The notes beneath the pieces were generated by a model. It saw only the letters and a program-made list of their open reading frames with translations. It searched no databases and was not told the origin of the DNA. 64,000 bases of DNA. It comes from Geobacillus thermoleovorans. Lineage in GTDB: Bacteria; Bacillota; Bacilli; Bacillales; Anoxybacillaceae. The position numbers and the translations under genes were made by a program. Shown here one piece after another: positions 7,988-16,667 of the stretch; within the stretch, counting starts at the first letter, position 1, and the number at the start of each line of letters is the position of its first letter. The stretch lies in the NCBI RefSeq assembly GCF_001610955.1, contig NZ_CP014335.1, positions 971,001 through 1,035,000 of the forward strand. Direction: 5' to 3'.

Positions 7988-9121
7988 ATGTCTGCGATCA
8001 GCCCATTTGTCGCCATTCGCCGCGACTTGCATCAAATTCCGGAGCTTGGGTTTCAGGAGTTTAAGACGCAGCAATATTTGCTTCGCTATATCCAGTCCCT
8101 GCCGCAAGAGCGGCTTCAAGTCCGGACGTGGAAAACGGGGATTTTCGTCAAAGTCAACGGAACATCGCCGCGCAAAACGATCGGCTACCGCGCCGATATG
8201 GACGGGCTGCCGATTCGCGAGGAGACCGGCTTGCCGTATCGGTCGAAACATGAAGGGCGCATGCACGCGTGCGGCCACGATGTGCATATGAGCATCGCTC
8301 TTGGTGTGCTCACCCATTTTGCTCATCATCCACTGAAAGACGATTTGCTGTTTGTATTCCAGCCGGCCGAGGAAGGACCGGGCGGAGCAAAGCCGATGTT
8401 AGAAAGCGACATCATGCGGGAATGGAAGCCGGATATCATCGTCGCCTTGCATATTGCGCCGGAATATCCCGTCGGCACGATTGCAACGAAAGAAGGGTTG
8501 CTGTTTGCCAATACGTCGGAGCTGTTTATCGATCTGAAGGGGAAAGGTGGCCACGCGGCGTTTCCGCATTTAGCGAATGACATGGTCGTCGCCGCCTGCG
8601 CATTGGTGACGCAGCTGCAGTCGATCGTCGCCCGCAACGTCGATCCGCTCGACAGCGCGGTCATTACGATCGGAAAAATTGCCGGCGGGACGGTGCAGAA
8701 CGTCATTGCGGAGCACGCCCGGCTCGAAGGAACGATTCGGACGCTGTCGACTGCAGCGATGCAGAAGGTGAAGCGGCGGATTGAAGCGATCGTGCATGGC
8801 ATTGAAGTCGCGTACGAATGTGAAGCATCCATCGATTACGGTGCCATGTACCATGAAGTGTATAATGATCCGGATCTGACAGCGGAATTTATGAAGTTTG
8901 CCAAGGCGCACGGCGGCGTGAATGTGATCCGTTGCAAAGAAGCGATGACTGGCGAAGATTTCGGCTATATGCTGGCGGACATCCCGGGTTTTATGTTTTG
9001 GCTTGGCGTCGCCTCACCATATGGGCTGCACCATGCAAAACTGGCTCCGAACGAGGAAGCGATCGACCGCGCCATCGCGTTTTTAATCGACTATTTTTCA
9101 TGGAAAGGAAACGCAGAATGA
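7988..9121 (+). CDS. dapL: N-acetyldiaminopimelate deacetylase
   Basis: A 377-residue M20-family amidohydrolase matching B. subtilis YkuR. It removes acetate from N-acetyl-LL-diaminopimelate, two steps after DapH. Metal-site motifs are visible in order: [31 protein letters not shown], and the late [12 protein letters not shown] dimerisation domain lies between about 175 and 285. ATG 7988 follows GGAGGAGAGACG. Pathway partner of the preceding gene; the aminotransferase step is encoded elsewhere. Confidence 0.94.
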
Positions 9122-9176
9122 AGTATAGTTCCGCCTCTAGCAACACACATTAATGAGTGTGAGGAGGTGGATTGTG

Positions 9177-9419
9177 ATGGCGAAAATTGGTGTTGAGCCA
9201 TCGTTGACGGACGTACAGGAAGCGTTGAAAGAGCGAGGATATGACGTTGTGCCGCTCCGAGGGGAGCAAGACGCAAGAGGCTGCGACTGCTGCGTCATTA
9301 CCGGCCTGGACGCCAATATCGCCGGCATTCACAACATCGTGACGTCCGGTCCGGTCATTGAAGCGAGCGGGCTCACCGCAGAAGAGATTTGCCAAAAAGT
9401 CGAAGAAAAACTTCGCTGA
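9177..9419 (+). CDS. ykuS: UPF0180 family protein YkuS
   Basis: An 80-residue protein of the YkuS family, function unknown. It contains the conserved GCDCCVITG segment (C-x-C-C) and [19 protein letters not shown] 9177 is used, with GAGGAGGTGG 7-8 bases upstream; a GTG directly before it is in the same frame and cannot be excluded. It is separated from dapL by 55 bases and ended by two successive terminators. Confidence 0.88.
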
Positions 9420-9430
9420 TGACGAACGTT

Positions 9431-9459
9431 CGGGCTGTGTGCGCTGGCAGCCCGCTTTT
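9431..9459 (+). terminator. first terminator after ykuS
   Basis: CGGGCTG/CAGCCCG stem followed by CTTTT. Confidence 0.7.
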
Positions 9460-9500
9460 GGGCGAAATGGCAAAATCGCATAGCGTAAAGGAATGGTGGA

Positions 9501-9538
9501 AAAGGAACGAAGAACGTTTTCGTTCCTTTTTCTTTTTT
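9501..9538 (+). terminator. second terminator after ykuS
   Basis: AAAGGAACGA/TCGTTCCTTT, a perfect 10-bp stem, then TTCTTTTTT. An extended -10 (TGCTAAAAT, 9538-9546) for ktrC overlaps its tail. Confidence 0.88.
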
Positions 9539-9588
9539 GCTAAAATAAGGGGAAGAAACAATGCTTGATCAACGATGGAGGAGTGTCA

Positions 9589-10251
9589 ATGAAAAAGAAA
9601 CAGTTTGCCGTCATCGGCCTCGGGCGCTTTGGCGGCAGCATCTGCCGGACGCTGAGCGAACAAGGGATGGAAGTATTGGCCATCGATATTGATGAAGACC
9701 GGGTAAACGAATTTGCGTCGATCGCTTCGCACGCCGTCGTCGGCGACACGACCGATGAAAACGTGCTGAAAAGTTTAGGCATCCGCAACTTCGACCATGT
9801 CATTGTCGCGATCGGCGACAACATCCAGGCGAGCATTTTGACGACCCTGATTTTAAAAGAGCTCGGCGTCAACCATATTACGGTCAAGGCAACGAACGAT
9901 TACCATGAGAAAGTGCTGAAAAAAATCGGCGCTGACCAAATCGTGCATCCAGAACGGGACATGGGCGAGCGGATCGCCCACAACTTGATTTCCAACAACG
10001 TCCTAGATTATCTGGAGCTGTCGGACAAATACAGCATTGTCGAAATCGTGGCAAGCGAGCGGCTTGACGGCCATTCGCTTTTGGAGCTTGACATCCGCGC
10101 CCGCTATGGCATCAACATCGTCGCCATCAAGCGTGGAACAAGCGTCATCGTCTCCCCGCTCGCCTCGGAAATCATCCGCAAAGGCGACGTGTTGGTCGTC
10201 ATCGGCGCTGACAGCGACATTGACCGGTTTGAGGAAAAAGTGGTCGGTTGA
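9589..10251 (+). CDS. ktrC: K+ uptake regulator KtrC (RCK domains)
   Basis: A 220-residue cytoplasmic gating ring subunit of the Ktr potassium/sodium-coupled transporter, matching B. subtilis KtrC (YkqB). It has an N-terminal Rossmann RCK_N domain (GLGRFGGS, 10-17; about 1-135) that binds ATP/ADP and a C-terminal RCK_C domain (about 136-220), the site of c-di-AMP binding in relatives. Its membrane partner KtrD is not in the window. ATG 9589 follows GGAGGA by six bases. It converges on rnjA across a shared terminator; B. subtilis has adeC between these genes. Confidence 0.94.
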   Translation: MKKKQFAVIGLGRFGGSICRTLSEQGMEVLAIDIDEDRVNEFASIASHAVVGDTTDENVLKSLGIRNFDHVIVAIGDNIQASILTTLILKELGVNHITVKATNDYHEKVLKKIGADQIVHPERDMGERIAHNLISNNVLDYLELSDKYSIVEIVASERLDGHSLLELDIRARYGINIVAIKRGTSVIVSPLASEIIRKGDVLVVIGADSDIDRFEEKVVG

Positions 10252-10285
10252 CGGCTGGCAGGCGGCCTGTGCATGATGATGACGG

Positions 10286-10320
10286 AAAAAGGGCATCCTT
10301 TTACAAGGACGCCCTTTTTT
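10286..10320. terminator. bidirectional terminator between ktrC and rnjA
   Basis: AAAAAGGGC-TCCTT pairs with AAGGA-GCCCTTTTTT (one mismatched pair inside); T-runs on both strands. Confidence 0.9.
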
Positions 10321-10322
10321 CT

Positions 10323-11990
10323 TTAGATTTCCATGATGATCGGCAAAATCATTGGCCGCCGTTTCGTCCGCTCGTACAAGAACGGAGCGAGCGTTTCCGT
10401 AATTTCGTTTTTGATCTCCGACCATTGGTTCGTTTTCCGTTCCAGCACTTTTTCGAGATGCTTGGAGATCAACACTTGCGCTTCGCTGATTAAGTCACCT
10501 GACTCACGCATATAGACGAAGCCGCGAGAAATAATGTCCGGGCCGGCGGCGATTTTGAACTCTTTCATGTTGATGCTGACGACGACAATCACGAGCCCTT
10601 CCTCAGACAAAATGCGGCGGTCGCGCAAGACGATGTTGCCGATGTCGCCGACACCGCTGCCGTCGATGTAGACGGAGCCGGACGGGATCTTGCCGACGAT
10701 GCGCGCTTCTTTGTCGCTGATGCCAAGCACTTCGCCGTTGTCCATAATAAAGCAGTTTTCCTCCGGCACGCCGCAGTCGATGGCGAGCTTGGCGTGCATT
10801 TTTTGCATGCGGTATTCGCCGTGGATCGGCATGAAATATTTCGGCTTCATCAGCCGGATCATCAATTTTTGTTCTTCCTGCCCACCGTGGCCGGACGTAT
10901 GGATGTCGTTGAGCGGGCCATGGATGACTTCTGCGCCGGCGCGGTACAGCATGTTGATTGTCCGGTTGACGCTCACCGTGTTGCCCGGAATCGGCGATGA
11001 GGAAAAGACGACCGTGTCGCCTGGGATGATTTGAATTTGCCGGTGCGTGCCGTTGGCGATGCGCGACAAGGCGGCCATCGGCTCCCCTTGGCTGCCGGTG
11101 CATAAAATCGTCACCCGGTTGGCCGGCAGGCGGTTGATTTCGTTCGCGTCGACGAACGTGCCTTTCGGACATTTGATATAGCCGAGGTCTTGTCCGATCT
11201 CAATCGCCGCTTCCATGCTTCGACCGAAGACAGCGATTTTTCGGTTGTTGGCGACGGCTGCTTCCGTCACCTGTTGGAGACGGTGGATGTTTGATGCAAA
11301 TGTGGCGAAAATGATGCGTCCTTCCACCTTGCGGAAAATGTCGTGAATGCTTTCACCGACGCGCCGCTCCGACATCGTAAAATGCGGGATCTCGCTGTTC
11401 GTGCTGTCCGACAGCAGGCAAAGAACTCCTTCTTTCCCAATTTCGGCCATTTTTGTCAAATTGGCCGGCTCGCCGACCGGCGTAAAGTCGAATTTAAAAT
11501 CCCCAGTGTGAACGATTTGCCCGACTGGCGTTTTCACAACAATACCGTAGCTGTCCGGAATGCTGTGTGTCGTCCGGAAAAAGGTGACGGCCGTTTTTTG
11601 AAAGCGGATGACATCGTCTTCGCGAATCTCAATGAGTTTCGCTTGGCGCAACAATCCATGTTCCTCAAGCTTATTGCGAATCAGCCCAAGCGCTAATTTG
11701 CCGCCGTAAATCGGGATGTTCACCTGCCGGAGCAAATACGGAATGCCGCCGATATGGTCTTCGTGCCCGTGGGTGATGAACAGTCCTTTCACTTTGTCCG
11801 CGTGCTTCACTAAATAGGAGTAGTCTGGAATGACATAGTCGATCCCGAGCAGCTCATCTTCCGGAAACTTAATGCCTGCGTCAATGACAATGATTTCGTC
11901 TTGGAATTGTACGCCGTATGTATTTTTTCCAATTTCACCCAGTCCGCCGAGGGCAAAAACGCCAACTTGCTGATCTGTCAACAGCTTCAT
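10323..11990 (-). CDS. rnjA: ribonuclease J1
   Basis: A 555-residue metallo-beta-lactamase/beta-CASP ribonuclease, very close to B. subtilis RNase J1, which acts as 5'-3' exonuclease and endonuclease in mRNA decay and 16S rRNA maturation. The zinc motif HGHEDH is at 74-79, with the beta-CASP part around [10 protein letters not shown] and [13 protein letters not shown], a late motif MPIHGEYR, and the C-terminal domain ending [10 protein letters not shown]. It starts 4 bases inside the 3' end of rpoY (ATGA overlap), so the two are one operon. In B. subtilis the SR1P peptide and GapA modulate this enzyme; an SR1P gene is found at 20570. Confidence 0.97.
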
Positions 11991-12202
11991 GATGAAATCT
12001 CCAATACTTGAAAGTTCGGGCTTTTCTTTTCGTATTCTAGATGCGCTCCCTCTAACGGCTGAATATACTCAATATTGATCGGACGGCCTTCGAGTTTTCG
12101 GCGTACATCCCGCTCTGATTCTGCTTCGATGTAGAGTGTTTTCGTTTTTTCTCTCACGGGCGCCTCGTCTGCGTTTTCTTGGTAAAACACTTTGAAAATC
12201 AT
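11987..12202 (-). CDS. rpoY: RNA polymerase epsilon subunit
   Basis: A 71-residue acidic protein matching YkzG/RpoY, the small epsilon subunit that binds RNA polymerase in Firmicutes. Typical features are the IFKVFYQE start and the [15 protein letters not shown] segment. RBS AAGGAGA before ATG 12202; an AT-rich promoter region with TATAAT lies about 35 bases upstream on the minus strand. Overlaps rnjA by four bases. Confidence 0.95.
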
Positions 12203-12363
12203 CGTGAAATCTCTCCTTATCGTACAATGGTTGCTCTATCTATTATATAAGAATGTAACTTTCTTTTCATGTATTTTGTTGCCAAAAGCAAAAAACAGGC
12301 GTGAGATGTGCCGACGATATGCATCATCTTTGACGAATGTTGCCCGCTTTATTCGCCAAAGTG

Positions 12364-12391
12364 GGAAAGAAGCCCTTCGAATGGAAGGGCT
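12364..12391 (-). terminator. terminator of the small peptide gene
   Basis: On the minus strand AGCCCTTC pairs with GAAGGGCT around a 5-base loop and is followed by TCTTT. It lies 13 bases after the stop of the 23-codon ORF. Confidence 0.65.
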
Positions 12392-12404
12392 GTTGTTGTA
12401 ACGG

Positions 12405-12476
12405 TCAGGCGATCAATTTTTTCCGGAGCAGGTCTTTCCACTGTTGAAGCAGCTTTTTTTTCAGCTTTTTCAACAT
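12405..12476 (-). CDS. 23-residue cationic amphipathic peptide
   Basis: ATG at 12476 (minus strand) opens 23 codons ending TGA at 12405-12407. AAGGAG lies exactly 9 bases before this ATG. An overlapping ATG in another frame (44 codons) is only 2 bases from the RBS and therefore less likely. The product starts MLKKLKKKLL and ends RKKLIA: nine Lys/Arg, one Asp, and Leu/Ile/Trp at positions 2, 5, 9, 13, 16, 17 and 21, which puts one hydrophobic face on an alpha helix. It has its own promoter (12499-12526) and terminator (12364-12391). No family recognised; membrane- or RNA-binding is inference from composition. Confidence 0.6.
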   Translation of the reverse strand: MLKKLKKKLLQQWKDLLRKKLIA

Positions 12477-12498
12477 GTTTCATCACTCCTTACCTTTT

Positions 12499-12526
12499 AT
12501 TGTACTCATTTTGCGGCGAAAGTAAA
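12499..12526 (-). promoter_or_regulatory. promoter of the small peptide gene
   Basis: On the minus strand TTTACT, 16-base spacer, TACAAT, then the AAGGAG RBS eight bases later, so the leader is very short. Confidence 0.6.
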
Positions 12527-12567
12527 TGTTCTATTATATATGATATGTAGGCGGAGGTTTGTTTTTC

Positions 12568-12663
12568 ATGGGTAAAAATGGAACAGATCGTGCCTCTTGG
12601 TTGACATTCCGGGCGTTTTTCAGTACGGTAGACAATGAACAATTTTTTAACAAGGGGAAGTGA
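12568..12663 (+). CDS. possible 31-codon leader ORF before the HAD phosphatase
   Basis: ATG 12568, preceded by GGAGG at 10 bases, opens 31 codons (MGKNGTDRAS... ending FFNKGK) whose stop lies 3 bases before the start of the next gene. It covers the TTGACA promoter of that gene. It may be a leader peptide or chance; no similarity recognised. Confidence 0.25.
   Translation: MGKNGTDRASWLTFRAFFSTVDNEQFFNKGK
12601..12629 (+). promoter_or_regulatory. promoter of the HAD phosphatase gene
   Basis: TTGACA, 17-base spacer, TACGGT. Transcription would start about 30 bases before GTG 12666. Confidence 0.6.
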
Positions 12664-12665
12664 AC

Positions 12666-13442
12666 GTGGGCAGAAAAATCGTCTTTTTCGACATCGACGG
12701 CACGCTTCTTGATGAGCAAAAGCAGCTGCCGCTGTCAACGATCGAAGCGGTTCGCCGCCTGAAGCAGTCGGGCGTTTATGTCGCCATCGCCACCGGACGC
12801 GCTCCGTTTATGTTTGAGCATGTGCGCAAACAGCTTGGCATCGATTCGTTCGTCAGCTTCAACGGTCAGTACGTCGTTTTTGAAGGGAACGTGTTATACA
12901 AGCAGCCGCTCCGGCGCGAGAAAGTCAGGGCGCTGACAGAGGAAGCCCACAAAAACGGCCATCCGCTCGTCTTTATGGATGCGGAGAAAATGAGAGCGAG
13001 CATCGGCGACCATCCGCACATCCACGTCAGCATGGCGAGTCTAAAATTCGCCCACCCGCCTGTCGACCCTCTTTATTATGAGAACAAAGACATTTATCAA
13101 GCGCTTCTGTTTTGCCGCGCCGAGGAAGAAGAACCGTATGTGCGCAACTATCCCGAATTTCGCTTCGTCCGTTGGCATGACGTCTCGACGGATGTGCTGC
13201 CGGCAGGGGGCTCGAAGGCGGAAGGCATCCGCATGATGATCGAAAAGCTCGGGATCGATAAGAAGGATGTGTACGCGTTCGGCGACGGATTGAATGACAT
13301 TGAAATGCTCTCGTTCGTCGGAACCGGGGTGGCGATGGGCAACGCCCATGAGGAAGTGAAAAGGGTCGCCGACTTCGTTACGAAACCGGTCGATAAGGAA
13401 GGCATTTGGTACGGATTGAAACAGCTGCAGCTCATCCGATAA
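12666..13442 (+). CDS. ykrA: Cof-type HAD phosphatase YkrA
   Basis: A 258-residue HAD hydrolase of the Cof subfamily, like B. subtilis YkrA. Motif I DIDGT lies near residue 9, motif II in IATGR, and motif III GDGLND in the C-terminal core; a cap domain of about 110 residues sits between. Such enzymes dephosphorylate sugar phosphates or nucleotides; the substrate is unknown. GTG 12666 is chosen over GTG 12660 because AAGGGG is 8 bases before it and the homologue starts at this point. Convergent with def. Confidence 0.87.
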   Translation: MGRKIVFFDIDGTLLDEQKQLPLSTIEAVRRLKQSGVYVAIATGRAPFMFEHVRKQLGIDSFVSFNGQYVVFEGNVLYKQPLRREKVRALTEEAHKNGHPLVFMDAEKMRASIGDHPHIHVSMASLKFAHPPVDPLYYENKDIYQALLFCRAEEEEPYVRNYPEFRFVRWHDVSTDVLPAGGSKAEGIRMMIEKLGIDKKDVYAFGDGLNDIEMLSFVGTGVAMGNAHEEVKRVADFVTKPVDKEGIWYGLKQLQLIR

Positions 13443-13474
13443 AAAGCGGCCTTGGCCTTTTCGGCGAGGCCGCT
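13441..13474 (-). terminator. terminator of def
   Basis: AGCGGCCT/AGGCCGCT with TTTTT on the minus strand side. The + strand side lacks a T-run, so ykrA may rely on read-in to the same hairpin. Confidence 0.75.
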
Positions 13475-13494
13475 CGCCATTGACAGCGGGCTTT

Positions 13495-14049
13495 TTAGCG
13501 CCCGATTGGAATCGCCCCGTCCGGCACTTGAAACGGGTCATCGGGGTTGATGCGGTCATAGAACATAATGCCGTTTAAATGATCGATTTCATGTTGGAAG
13601 ACGATGGCCGGCAGCCCTTTCAAGCGCAGTGTGACTTCTTCGCCGTCGATCGTCGTCCCAGTGACCGTGATGCGGGCATAGCGCGGCACATACCCTGGCA
13701 CGTCGCGGTCGACCGACAGGCAGCCTTCCCCGGTCGTCAAGTAACATTGCTGGACGGAATGGCTGACGATTTTCGGATTGAACAAGGCGTAGCTGTACAG
13801 CGTCCCGTTTTCATCGGTGACATGGACGGCGATCATCCGCTTTGAGACGTTGATTTGCGGGGCGGCAAGGCCAATGCCGGGCCGCAGGCCGTATTTAGCT
13901 GCCAGCTCCGGGTCTTGGCTCATTTTCACGTAGTCAAGCAAGCTTTGCAAAATGCGCTTATCTTCCTCTGAAGGCGGCAACGGAACGGGTTCGGCGATTT
14001 TCCGCAATGTCGGGTGCCCCTCTTTGATGATGTCCTTCATCGTGATCAT
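13495..14049 (-). CDS. def: peptide deformylase
   Basis: A 184-residue iron-type deformylase that removes formyl from the N-terminal Met of nascent proteins. Motif 1 GIGLAAPQ (58-65), motif 2 EGCLS with metal ligand C110, and motif 3 HEIDH (H153, E154, H157) are all intact. It has the longer Gram-positive (type 2) form, with an insertion around residues 40-55. Start ATG 14049 with AGGGAGTG upstream. B. subtilis ykyA, normally between def and pdhA, is absent. Confidence 0.96.
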   Translation of the reverse strand: MITMKDIIKEGHPTLRKIAEPVPLPPSEEDKRILQSLLDYVKMSQDPELAAKYGLRPGIGLAAPQINVSKRMIAVHVTDENGTLYSYALFNPKIVSHSVQQCYLTTGEGCLSVDRDVPGYVPRYARITVTGTTIDGEEVTLRLKGLPAIVFQHEIDHLNGIMFYDRINPDDPFQVPDGAIPIGR

Positions 14050-14183
14050 TCGCTTCGTTCACTCCCTACGTTTGGCATCGCTGTCTATCGTTTAGTCTAA
14101 CAAAATGAGCATCGATCGTAAATAAAAACGCAACCGCACGAATATATTATTCGAGTATAAGGAAAACAATAAGACAAATTCGA

Positions 14184-14195
14184 GAAAACGTTTTC
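14184..14195. promoter_or_regulatory. cre-like site (CcpA)
   Basis: GAAAACGTTTTC, a perfect 12-bp palindrome centred on CG. It agrees with the CcpA cre consensus except at the outer T. It lies about 170 bases upstream of the pdh promoter and just upstream of -35/-10-like sequences at 14202-14230. Confidence 0.5.
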
Positions 14196-14355
14196 ATTAT
14201 CTTGTCAAGCCACTGTGTGTTTTATATTTTGTGAAAATATAATACAGAACTCATACAGATGGTGAGGAATGTAATATAACAGTTTGTGGGCGGAATATTG
14301 CCAATTCCAATTTCACCCAAAAAATAAAGCGAAAAAACATGAGAAATCAAAGTCG

Positions 14356-14384
14356 TTGACGGTTGATCCAAGAACGTGTAAACT
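14356..14384 (+). promoter_or_regulatory. promoter of the pdh operon
   Basis: TTGACG, 17-base spacer, TAAACT. The predicted leader to ATG 14577 is about 185 bases. Confidence 0.7.
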
Positions 14385-14441
14385 AAAACTTGCAAATGCA
14401 TATTGTACTAATTCAGTCTTGAAAAATAGTGAAACAGATTT

Positions 14442-14487
14442 CGGCGCCTTTGTTGCTTGTGTTGGCGCCGGATGGCGGCCGTTTTTT
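14442..14487 (+). terminator. leader hairpin before pdhA, possible attenuator
   Basis: CGGCGCC and GGCGCCG (7 bp, perfect) are separated by 15 bases; a run of six T follows 11 bases after the stem. The position between promoter and first gene suggests transcription control, but the spacing to the T-run is not that of a standard terminator. Confidence 0.4.
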
Positions 14488-14558
14488 ATTTCTCTTTCAT
14501 TTTGGGTACATTAATAGTATATGGGCGAATGTATTCTCATTTCTAAAATTTCTAATGA

Positions 14559-15686
<1,128 letters not shown>

Positions 15687-15689
15687 GCC

Positions 15690-16667
15690 ATGGCGCAAAT
15701 GACAATGGTTCAAGCGATCACCGATGCGCTGCGCATCGAGATGAGAAACGATCCGAACGTGCTGGTGTTTGGCGAAGACGTTGGGGTCAACGGCGGCGTA
15801 TTCCGGGTGACCGAAGGGCTGCAAGCTGAGTTTGGCGAAGAACGTGTGTTTGATACGCCGCTGGCCGAATCGGGGATCGGCGGTTTGGCGATCGGCTTGG
15901 CCTTGCAAGGGTTTCGCCCAGTGCCGGAAATTCAGTTTTTCGGGTTCGTCTATGAGGCGATGGATGCGATTTGCGGACAAATGGCGCGCATCCGCTACCG
16001 CACTGGCGGCCGCTACCATGTTCCGATTACGATTCGTTCGCCGTTTGGCGGCGGCGTCCATACGCCAGAATTGCACTCAGACAGCTTAGAAGGACTCGTC
16101 GCCCAACAGCCGGGCTTGAAAGTCGTCATCCCGTCGACGCCGTATGATGCGAAAGGATTGCTCATCTCGGCGATCCGCGACAACGACCCGGTTATTTTCC
16201 TTGAGCATTTGAAACTGTACCGTTCGTTCCGACAAGAGGTGCCCGAAGGAGAGTACACAATTCCGATCGGCAAAGCAGACATTAAGCGTGAAGGGAAAGA
16301 CATTACGATTATCGCGTACGGGGCCATGGTGCATGAATCGTTAAAGGCGGCGGCAGAATTAGAGAAAGAAGGCATTTCTGCCGAAGTCGTCGACTTGCGC
16401 ACCGTGCAGCCGCTCGATATTGAGACGATCATTGGTTCGGTCGAAAAAACGGGCCGCGCCATCGTCGTTCAAGAAGCGCAACGGCAAGCCGGCATCGCCG
16501 CCAACGTCGTTGCTGAAATTAACGAGCGCGCGATTTTAAGCCTTGAGGCGCCTGTATTGCGCGTCGCCGCGCCGGATACCGTCTATCCGTTCGCTCAAGC
16601 AGAATCGGTGTGGCTGCCGAACTTTAAAGACGTGATCGAGACGGCGAAAAAAGTGATCAACTTCTAA
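15690..16667 (+). CDS. pdhB: pyruvate dehydrogenase E1 beta
   Basis: A 325-residue E1 beta subunit, partner of PdhA in the alpha2beta2 E1. It has the [15 protein letters not shown] start region and ends in the transketolase C-terminal domain (about 200-325). It starts three bases after pdhA, with GAAGGAG at the end of pdhA as RBS. The complex converts pyruvate to acetyl-CoA for the TCA cycle and for branched fatty acid synthesis. Confidence 0.97.

Follow-up and report, generated by a model that had tools for sequence, protein, structure and literature searches.

SpoVM is a 26-residue amphipathic peptide specific to sporulation, and the locus described here resembles it in that its predicted product is a very short cytoplasmic amphipathic helix. 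Attenuator leader peptides are a second point of comparison, as the locus likewise has a short open reading frame (ORF), a good Shine-Dalgarno (SD) site, a hairpin soon after the stop codon in the genus, and an operon downstream. SR1P is a small protein that, according to PMC8152036, is known from the Bacillales only and acts on RNase J1 through GapA. By that description, our peptide and SR1P are alike in being small, in occurring in the Bacillales, and in having a constant genomic place, and SR1P itself is tied to RNase J1. They differ in length, SR1P having 39 residues and the peptide 23.

The window, a 64,000-nucleotide stretch of Geobacillus thermoleovorans DNA (contig NZ_CP014335.1, positions 971,001 to 1,035,000), carries the following features at this locus.

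12540 to 12569, minus strand: promoter-like site P1, ATGAAA-18-TATCAT, upstream of P2, from a pattern scan, degenerate in the window
12499 to 12526, minus strand: promoter-like site P2, TTTACT-16-TACAAT (boxes 12526-12521 and 12504-12499), from a pattern scan
12486 to 12491, minus strand: SD sequence AAGGAG, with a 9-nt spacer to the peptide ATG
12405 to 12476, minus strand: ORF for the 23-residue peptide MLKKLKKKLLQQWKDLLRKKLIA, ATG at 12476, TGA at 12407-12405
12371 to 12391, minus strand: terminator-like hairpin AGCCCTTC-CATTC-GAAGGGCT, 13 nt 3' of the stop codon, with a weak T-run
12242 to 12270, minus strand: rpoY promoter-like site ATGAAA-17-TATAAT, 10 of 12 matches, distinct from the peptide gene
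11987 to 12202, minus strand: rpoY, RNA polymerase epsilon subunit (PF07288, E = 6.6e-32)
10323 to 11990, minus strand: rnjA, ribonuclease J1 (NF047419, E = 1e-296)
12660 to 13442, plus strand: ykrA-like HAD hydrolase gene (PF08282), divergent

The original prediction placed a promoter, a ribosome binding site, 23 codons, and a hairpin in that order on the minus strand, and all of them are found at the predicted positions, with P2 placed such that the RNA start would fall close to the peptide SD. The peptide does contain the nine Lys/Arg residues that had been counted (8 Lys and 1 Arg), along with 1 Asp, for a net charge of +8. The pattern evidence alone is weak: 3 promoter-like sites occur in 461 bases versus 1.3 (standard deviation, 1.1) in shuffles, and the peptide hairpin is absent from the list of the minus-strand terminator scan, its T-run (TCTTTCCC) being too poor. 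We therefore accept the peptide gene as real because of its conservation. An overlapping 45-codon GTG frame (12349-12486) was considered and rejected, as its stops are scattered in relatives and the frame is not kept.

Loss of the frame in close relatives had been named beforehand as the outcome that would count against the gene. Both the frame and the region are present in all 14 genomes of the genus set, which yielded 15 copies of the region. Relative to the window ORF, these copies differ by 31 synonymous codon changes and a single replacement, which puts Ser in place of Leu21 in one of the genomes. The predicted conservation of protein over synonymous sites thus holds, with pN/pS ratios of 0.025 in the genus (8 distinct ORFs) and 0.118 in the family (30 distinct ORFs); over the 144 distinct ORFs of all loci, where synonymous sites are near saturation, the ratio is 0.315. 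All 15 genus copies retain intact P2 boxes and an intact hairpin stem, while the five-base loop occurs in eight different sequences and the 3' region is variable except for the stem and its close flank. Among 169 distinct loci, the peptide frame stops at codon 23 (interquartile range, 23 to 23), whereas one alternative frame closes immediately and the other stops at scattered positions. In the family, rpoY was matched in 40 of 41 genomes (the exception is G025), and a 23-residue version lies upstream in 40 of 40. The pattern of codon changes indicates that the peptide is under strong purifying selection and marks the ORF as a genuine small protein-coding gene, presumably translated. The one genome with two copies of the region (G012, loci L006 and L016) has them in one contig near both ends, with identical match scores, and probably represents a circular chromosome with overlapping ends, not a true second copy.

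A profile (A1) built from 19 versions of the peptide was used to search the order, the class, and the phylum. In the order, 333 of 397 genomes were matched at E ≤ 1; by hand count, the best E value exceeded 0.01 in 82 of the 333, leaving about 251 at E ≤ 0.01. Follow-up by way of rpoY covered 20 of the 64 genomes without a match and 20 whose best E value was 0.1 or worse. All 40 contain rpoY, and in the 39 that were read (G137 was left out) we found 24 diverged versions (for example, MLKRWRERILKRCRDLLPKNLYA), 2 doubtful ones (L284 and L285), and 13 loci with none. Since 13 of these 39 genomes have rpoY without a recognizable peptide, neither neighbor strictly needs it. In the class sample, A1 matched 73 of 398 genomes at E ≤ 0.01 and rpoY was found in 175 of 398; the A1 matches fall in the Bacillales, in family f49 (which contains a named Planomicrobium soli contig), in one genome of f55, and, as a partial match, in one of f86. 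The phylum sample yielded 12 matched genomes out of 398, four of them spurious. The matches in f172 (4 genomes, E = 2e-4 to 1.4e-3) were rejected, as another conserved ORF, read in a different frame, encloses them and no rpoY occurs within the 2.1 kb fetched around them. The match in G708 (E = 0.0035) is partial and lies within a 126-residue frame.

Of 161 named loci found through rpoY, the best 80 were inspected, and 75 of these 80 contain a version of the peptide; carriers include Geobacillus, Parageobacillus, Anoxybacillus, Neobacillus, Cytobacillus, Rossellomorea, Priestia, Domibacillus, Virgibacillus, Evansella, Planococcus, and Planomicrobium. It is missing in Bacillus sp. 165 (L075), Sporolactobacillus sp. 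THM7-7 (L076), Marinococcus halophilus (L095), a Bacilli metagenome-assembled genome (L100), and Fictibacillus gelatini (L105). Under the filters applied, no such peptide was found at any of the 15 rpoY loci fetched from families f51, f56, f62, f72, f78, f84, and f87, while the Bacillales loci L301 and L302, fetched with that set, do carry it. Taken as sequence matches, these results describe a microprotein family, usually of 23 residues, that extends through the Bacillales and also occurs in f49, a further family group within the class.

Primers for Bacillus subtilis rpoY (ykzG) are given in PMC2994887, and both match loci L182 and L304 of genus g51 without mismatch. L182 carries MLRRLRKKLKRQWGGMLRKKVIT 187 nt and L304 carries MLRRLRKKLRRQWGGMLRKKVIA 186 nt upstream of rpoY, and a version of the peptide is also found in seven other g51 loci read. 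By this sequence evidence the peptide is present in the B. subtilis lineage (genus g51). In PMC3814617 and PMC8216469, the locus numbers are BSU14540 for ykzG and BSU14550 for ykrA. As these numbers are consecutive, no gene was originally numbered between the two, if they are neighbors there as in the window.

The original prediction suspected an undescribed gene, and the peptide is indeed absent from the family libraries searched. It matched no Pfam family at E ≤ 1, in a search that approaches its sensitivity limit with so short a query, and no NCBIfam family, either for the window peptide at E ≤ 1 or for the 19 members of A1 at E ≤ 10. No relative was found among PDB sequences (7 partial matches at E ≤ 10, the best with E = 0.23). 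A profile of versions of 23 to 45 residues retrieved 68 proteins at E ≤ 10 from a database of 5.8 billion proteins, and any name shown for them is "hypothetical protein" or "uncharacterized protein." Our search of an incomplete literature library found no description of the peptide gene; an entry in supplementary lists of small transcripts or small proteins is possible.

Upstream control signals vary among relatives. All 161 distinct relatives have an SD-like tetramer no more than 24 nt upstream of the ORF, and among the loci listed, a sigma-A-like promoter ends just 5' of the SD in Geobacillus, Neobacillus, Cytobacillus, and f49. Sigma-70-like scores 5' of the peptide are slightly higher than those of shuffled sequences (7.70 versus 7.11), with 68 of 168 reaching 9 of 12 matches. 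P1, degenerate in the window, has a counterpart in many relatives of the form CCATGAAAAA...CATATAATA or CATATACTA. Of 171 distinct upstream regions, 91 have the fuller motif, TTCCA followed by CCATGAAAAA and then by CATATAATA or CATATACTA, on the coding strand, compared with 5 on the opposite strand and 12.7 in mononucleotide shuffles; its appearance is that of a promoter combined with a regulator site. TTCCA and CCATGAAAAA provide two CC boxes at a spacing of exactly 10 bp, upstream of CATATAATA or CATATACTA (for example, in L026, L032, L070, L137, and L169). Among the loci listed, GGACAAG, which we take to resemble a SpoIIID site, occurs in the promoter spacer or just 5' of the SD in L070, L073, L078, L085, L154, L169, and L178.

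A Virgibacillus/Lentibacillus-type clade (Virgibacillus, Lentibacillus, Ornithinibacillus, and Amphibacillus loci together with f2, f7, f13, and f36) has a different arrangement. A TACTATACTA-like box starts 67 to 103 nt before the ORF and is followed by a conserved leader, AAGAGGGAttGGatCGG...AACGTTTTT...GCTTTTC...GAAAGGAG, whose CTTTTC is able to pair with the SD. Leaders of the AAGAGGGAttGGatCGG type occur in L081, L087, L089, L092, L098, L120, L172, L173, L177, L180, L184 to L187, L193, L202 to L206, L210, L213, L214, and L241. In single leaders the SD is less accessible than in shuffled sequences (mean of 0.21 versus 0.41), hiding being significant at P < 0.05 in 3 of 23 and two leaders being more open than most shuffles, and RNAalifold found no consensus fold (energy 0). 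It is possible that this leader controls translation by SD pairing, for which these values are only suggestive.

The peptide had been predicted to form a cationic amphipathic helix, and the family bears this out. The mean hydrophobic moment of 104 distinct peptides is twice that of shuffled sequences (0.68 versus 0.34; P < 0.05 in 98%), their mean net charge is +8.5, and the moment peaks near 95 to 100 degrees per residue, as for an alpha helix. For the window peptide the moment is 0.705. The length is exactly 23 residues in 97 of 113 distinct peptides. Hydrophobic residues occupy positions 2, 5, 9, 13, 16, 17, and 22 in at least 96 of these 97, and Lys or Arg occupies positions 3, 6, 8, 19, and 20 in at least 94. 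A structure model of a 31-residue relative consists of a single helix spanning residues 2 to 20, at modest confidence (mean pLDDT, 71.6; pTM, 0.31). All but one of the 101 distinct versions of 22 to 23 residues have a C-terminal Ala, preceded by Ile, Tyr, Leu, Met, or Val, and this Ala is lost in extended versions. One possibility is that a hydrophobic residue followed by Ala at the C terminus is a degradation signal.

We propose that the peptide is a core microprotein of the Bacillales that acts in trans. It very likely has a real job, and we consider the proposal as a whole, which is drawn from sequence, to have an even chance of being right. Action in trans is favored because amino acid selection covers the whole length of the peptide, because the gene has its own promoter-like site and hairpin in the genus, and because the helix pattern is conserved. 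A sigma-A-type promoter would produce a short mRNA, about 140 nt in the genus if ended by the hairpin, that would be translated from the good SD site, and a Leu/Ile/Trp face opposite a Lys/Arg face would make the product an amphipathic helix. The most likely place for this helix would be the acidic inner face of the cytoplasmic membrane, where it would recruit or modulate a partner. The combination of a hydrophobic face containing Trp and numerous Lys/Arg residues is typical of peripheral membrane helices, and for this reason binding to the membrane surface is ranked first, with a probability that we put slightly short of even. A cationic amphipathic helix is equally compatible with acidic proteins, RNA, and ribosomes. 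That the partner belongs to transcription or RNA decay is suggested by the constant linkage to rpoY-rnjA; RNA polymerase or RNase J1 itself ranks after membrane binding and is a tentative choice, probably wrong in this specific form.

The original prediction compared the peptide with SpoVM, which it resembles in hydrophobic moment, the only property compared (0.71 for the window peptide versus 0.62 for an approximate SpoVM sequence). Planococcus and Planomicrobium are not known to sporulate, and Planococcus salinus (L099) and Planomicrobium soli (L084) retain the peptide, which makes a spore-only role like that of SpoVM unlikely. The promoter boxes also set the family apart from SpoVM, as they are mostly sigma-A-like among the loci listed, and P2 in the window looks to be of the sigma-A type.

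The gene was predicted to lie between rpoY and ykrA. This holds in the window, and across the family it is rpoY-rnjA that is the constant partner. In 107 of 107 loci picked by the peptide profile alone (one per genome, a part of all positive genomes), rpoY-rnjA lies downstream on the same strand at a distance of 157 to 639 nt, whereas divergent ykrA is found within 1 kb in 57 of the 96 loci with enough sequence, its place being taken elsewhere by defB or more distant genes. Over 175 distinct loci, the gap from the peptide stop codon to rpoY has quartiles of 141, 193, and 262 nt and a range of 19 to 994 nt. The shortest gaps are in L214 (19 nt) and L193 (31 nt), and in these loci and in L302 the arrangement makes it very likely that the peptide and rpoY share one mRNA.

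This neighborhood is an argument for the strongest of the rival explanations, in which the helix would tune transcription-linked RNA decay by binding to RNase J1 or RNA polymerase, much as SR1P acts on RNase J1 through GapA. The precedent that SR1P raises RNase J1 activity through GapA (PMC8152036) would favor such a role, as would the fixed position upstream of rpoY-rnjA and the operon probably shared with rpoY in L193, L214, and L302. It is weakened by the 15 loci of f51 to f87 in which rpoY does without the peptide, and a neighborhood may persist without any contact between products. We regard this cofactor role as possible and rather improbable. A broader version, in which a trans-acting Bacillales microprotein is a functional partner of rpoY-rnjA and links RNA polymerase to RNase J1 and perhaps also to the membrane, is more doubtful still.

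Where an operon is shared with rpoY, as in some relatives, a leader role is also possible. The ORF would then act in cis, with ribosome pausing or stopping deciding transcription or translation into rpoY-rnjA. The constant upstream position, the hairpin that starts so close to the stop codon in the genus, the fixed length and C-terminal Ala, and the 5' leader that may hide the SD in one clade are all in keeping with this idea. It accords poorly with selection that follows an amphipathic pattern over the entire peptide, a pattern that distinguishes the locus from attenuator leader peptides, and with a gap to rpoY that reaches 994 nt and the loss of the C-terminal Ala in extended versions. An attenuator would further be expected to have a conserved terminator and no separate promoter for the genes downstream. 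A crude scan found a hairpin with a T-run 3' of the ORF in 61 of 166 distinct regions, so that the hairpin is not general, and rpoY has a promoter-like site of its own, scores 5' of it being 7.9 versus 6.1 in shuffled sequences, with 95 of 168 reaching at least 9 of 12 matches. We consider action in cis unlikely.

The locus might instead produce a small regulatory RNA in which the ORF is secondary, as would fit a short transcript with a hairpin and a fold z-score of -2.56. A precedent for such a dual-function RNA, SR1, lies in the same window, its covariance match (RF02376, 20525-20771, plus strand, 58.2 bits) being elsewhere and not at the peptide locus. SR1 also base-pairs with mRNA, and nothing of that kind was seen for the peptide transcript. 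The peptide locus itself has no Rfam match between 12300 and 12600 (at E ≤ 1 over 9000-16000 and at the gathering cutoff over the whole window), the 3' region varies within the genus except for the stem and flank, and changes in the ORF are nearly all synonymous, which together make an RNA with a secondary ORF very unlikely. With SR1 and the peptide gene, the window may hold two small-protein genes near RNA decay functions. The window also contains a match to the ylbH leader (RF00516, 49053-49201, plus strand, 90.5 bits).

A toxin-like or antimicrobial membrane-active peptide, of the kind of a type I toxin or a leaderless bacteriocin, would share the charge and amphipathicity seen here, but type I toxin-antitoxin systems are expected to be patchy and in several copies, whereas the window's genome has a single match to the peptide at E ≤ 10 (the A1 profile counts a second, weak one) and one constant chromosomal site across the order under strong purifying selection is the pattern of a core gene, so that we give this explanation hardly any weight.

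We thus return to a core microprotein acting in trans as the preferred reading. Order-wide, strongly selected genes without a name are expected to be rare in the well-studied Bacillus group, and a peptide profile combined with synteny is a practical way to find such small genes. If the gene is translated, Bacillales, the B. subtilis lineage among them, would have a conserved small protein whose gene lies beside those for a polymerase subunit and a main 5'-3' exoribonuclease. Should the more speculative coupling of RNA polymerase and RNase J1 prove true, transcription-coupled RNA decay would have in this peptide a small cofactor of its own, overlooked by gene callers even in the B. subtilis lineage.
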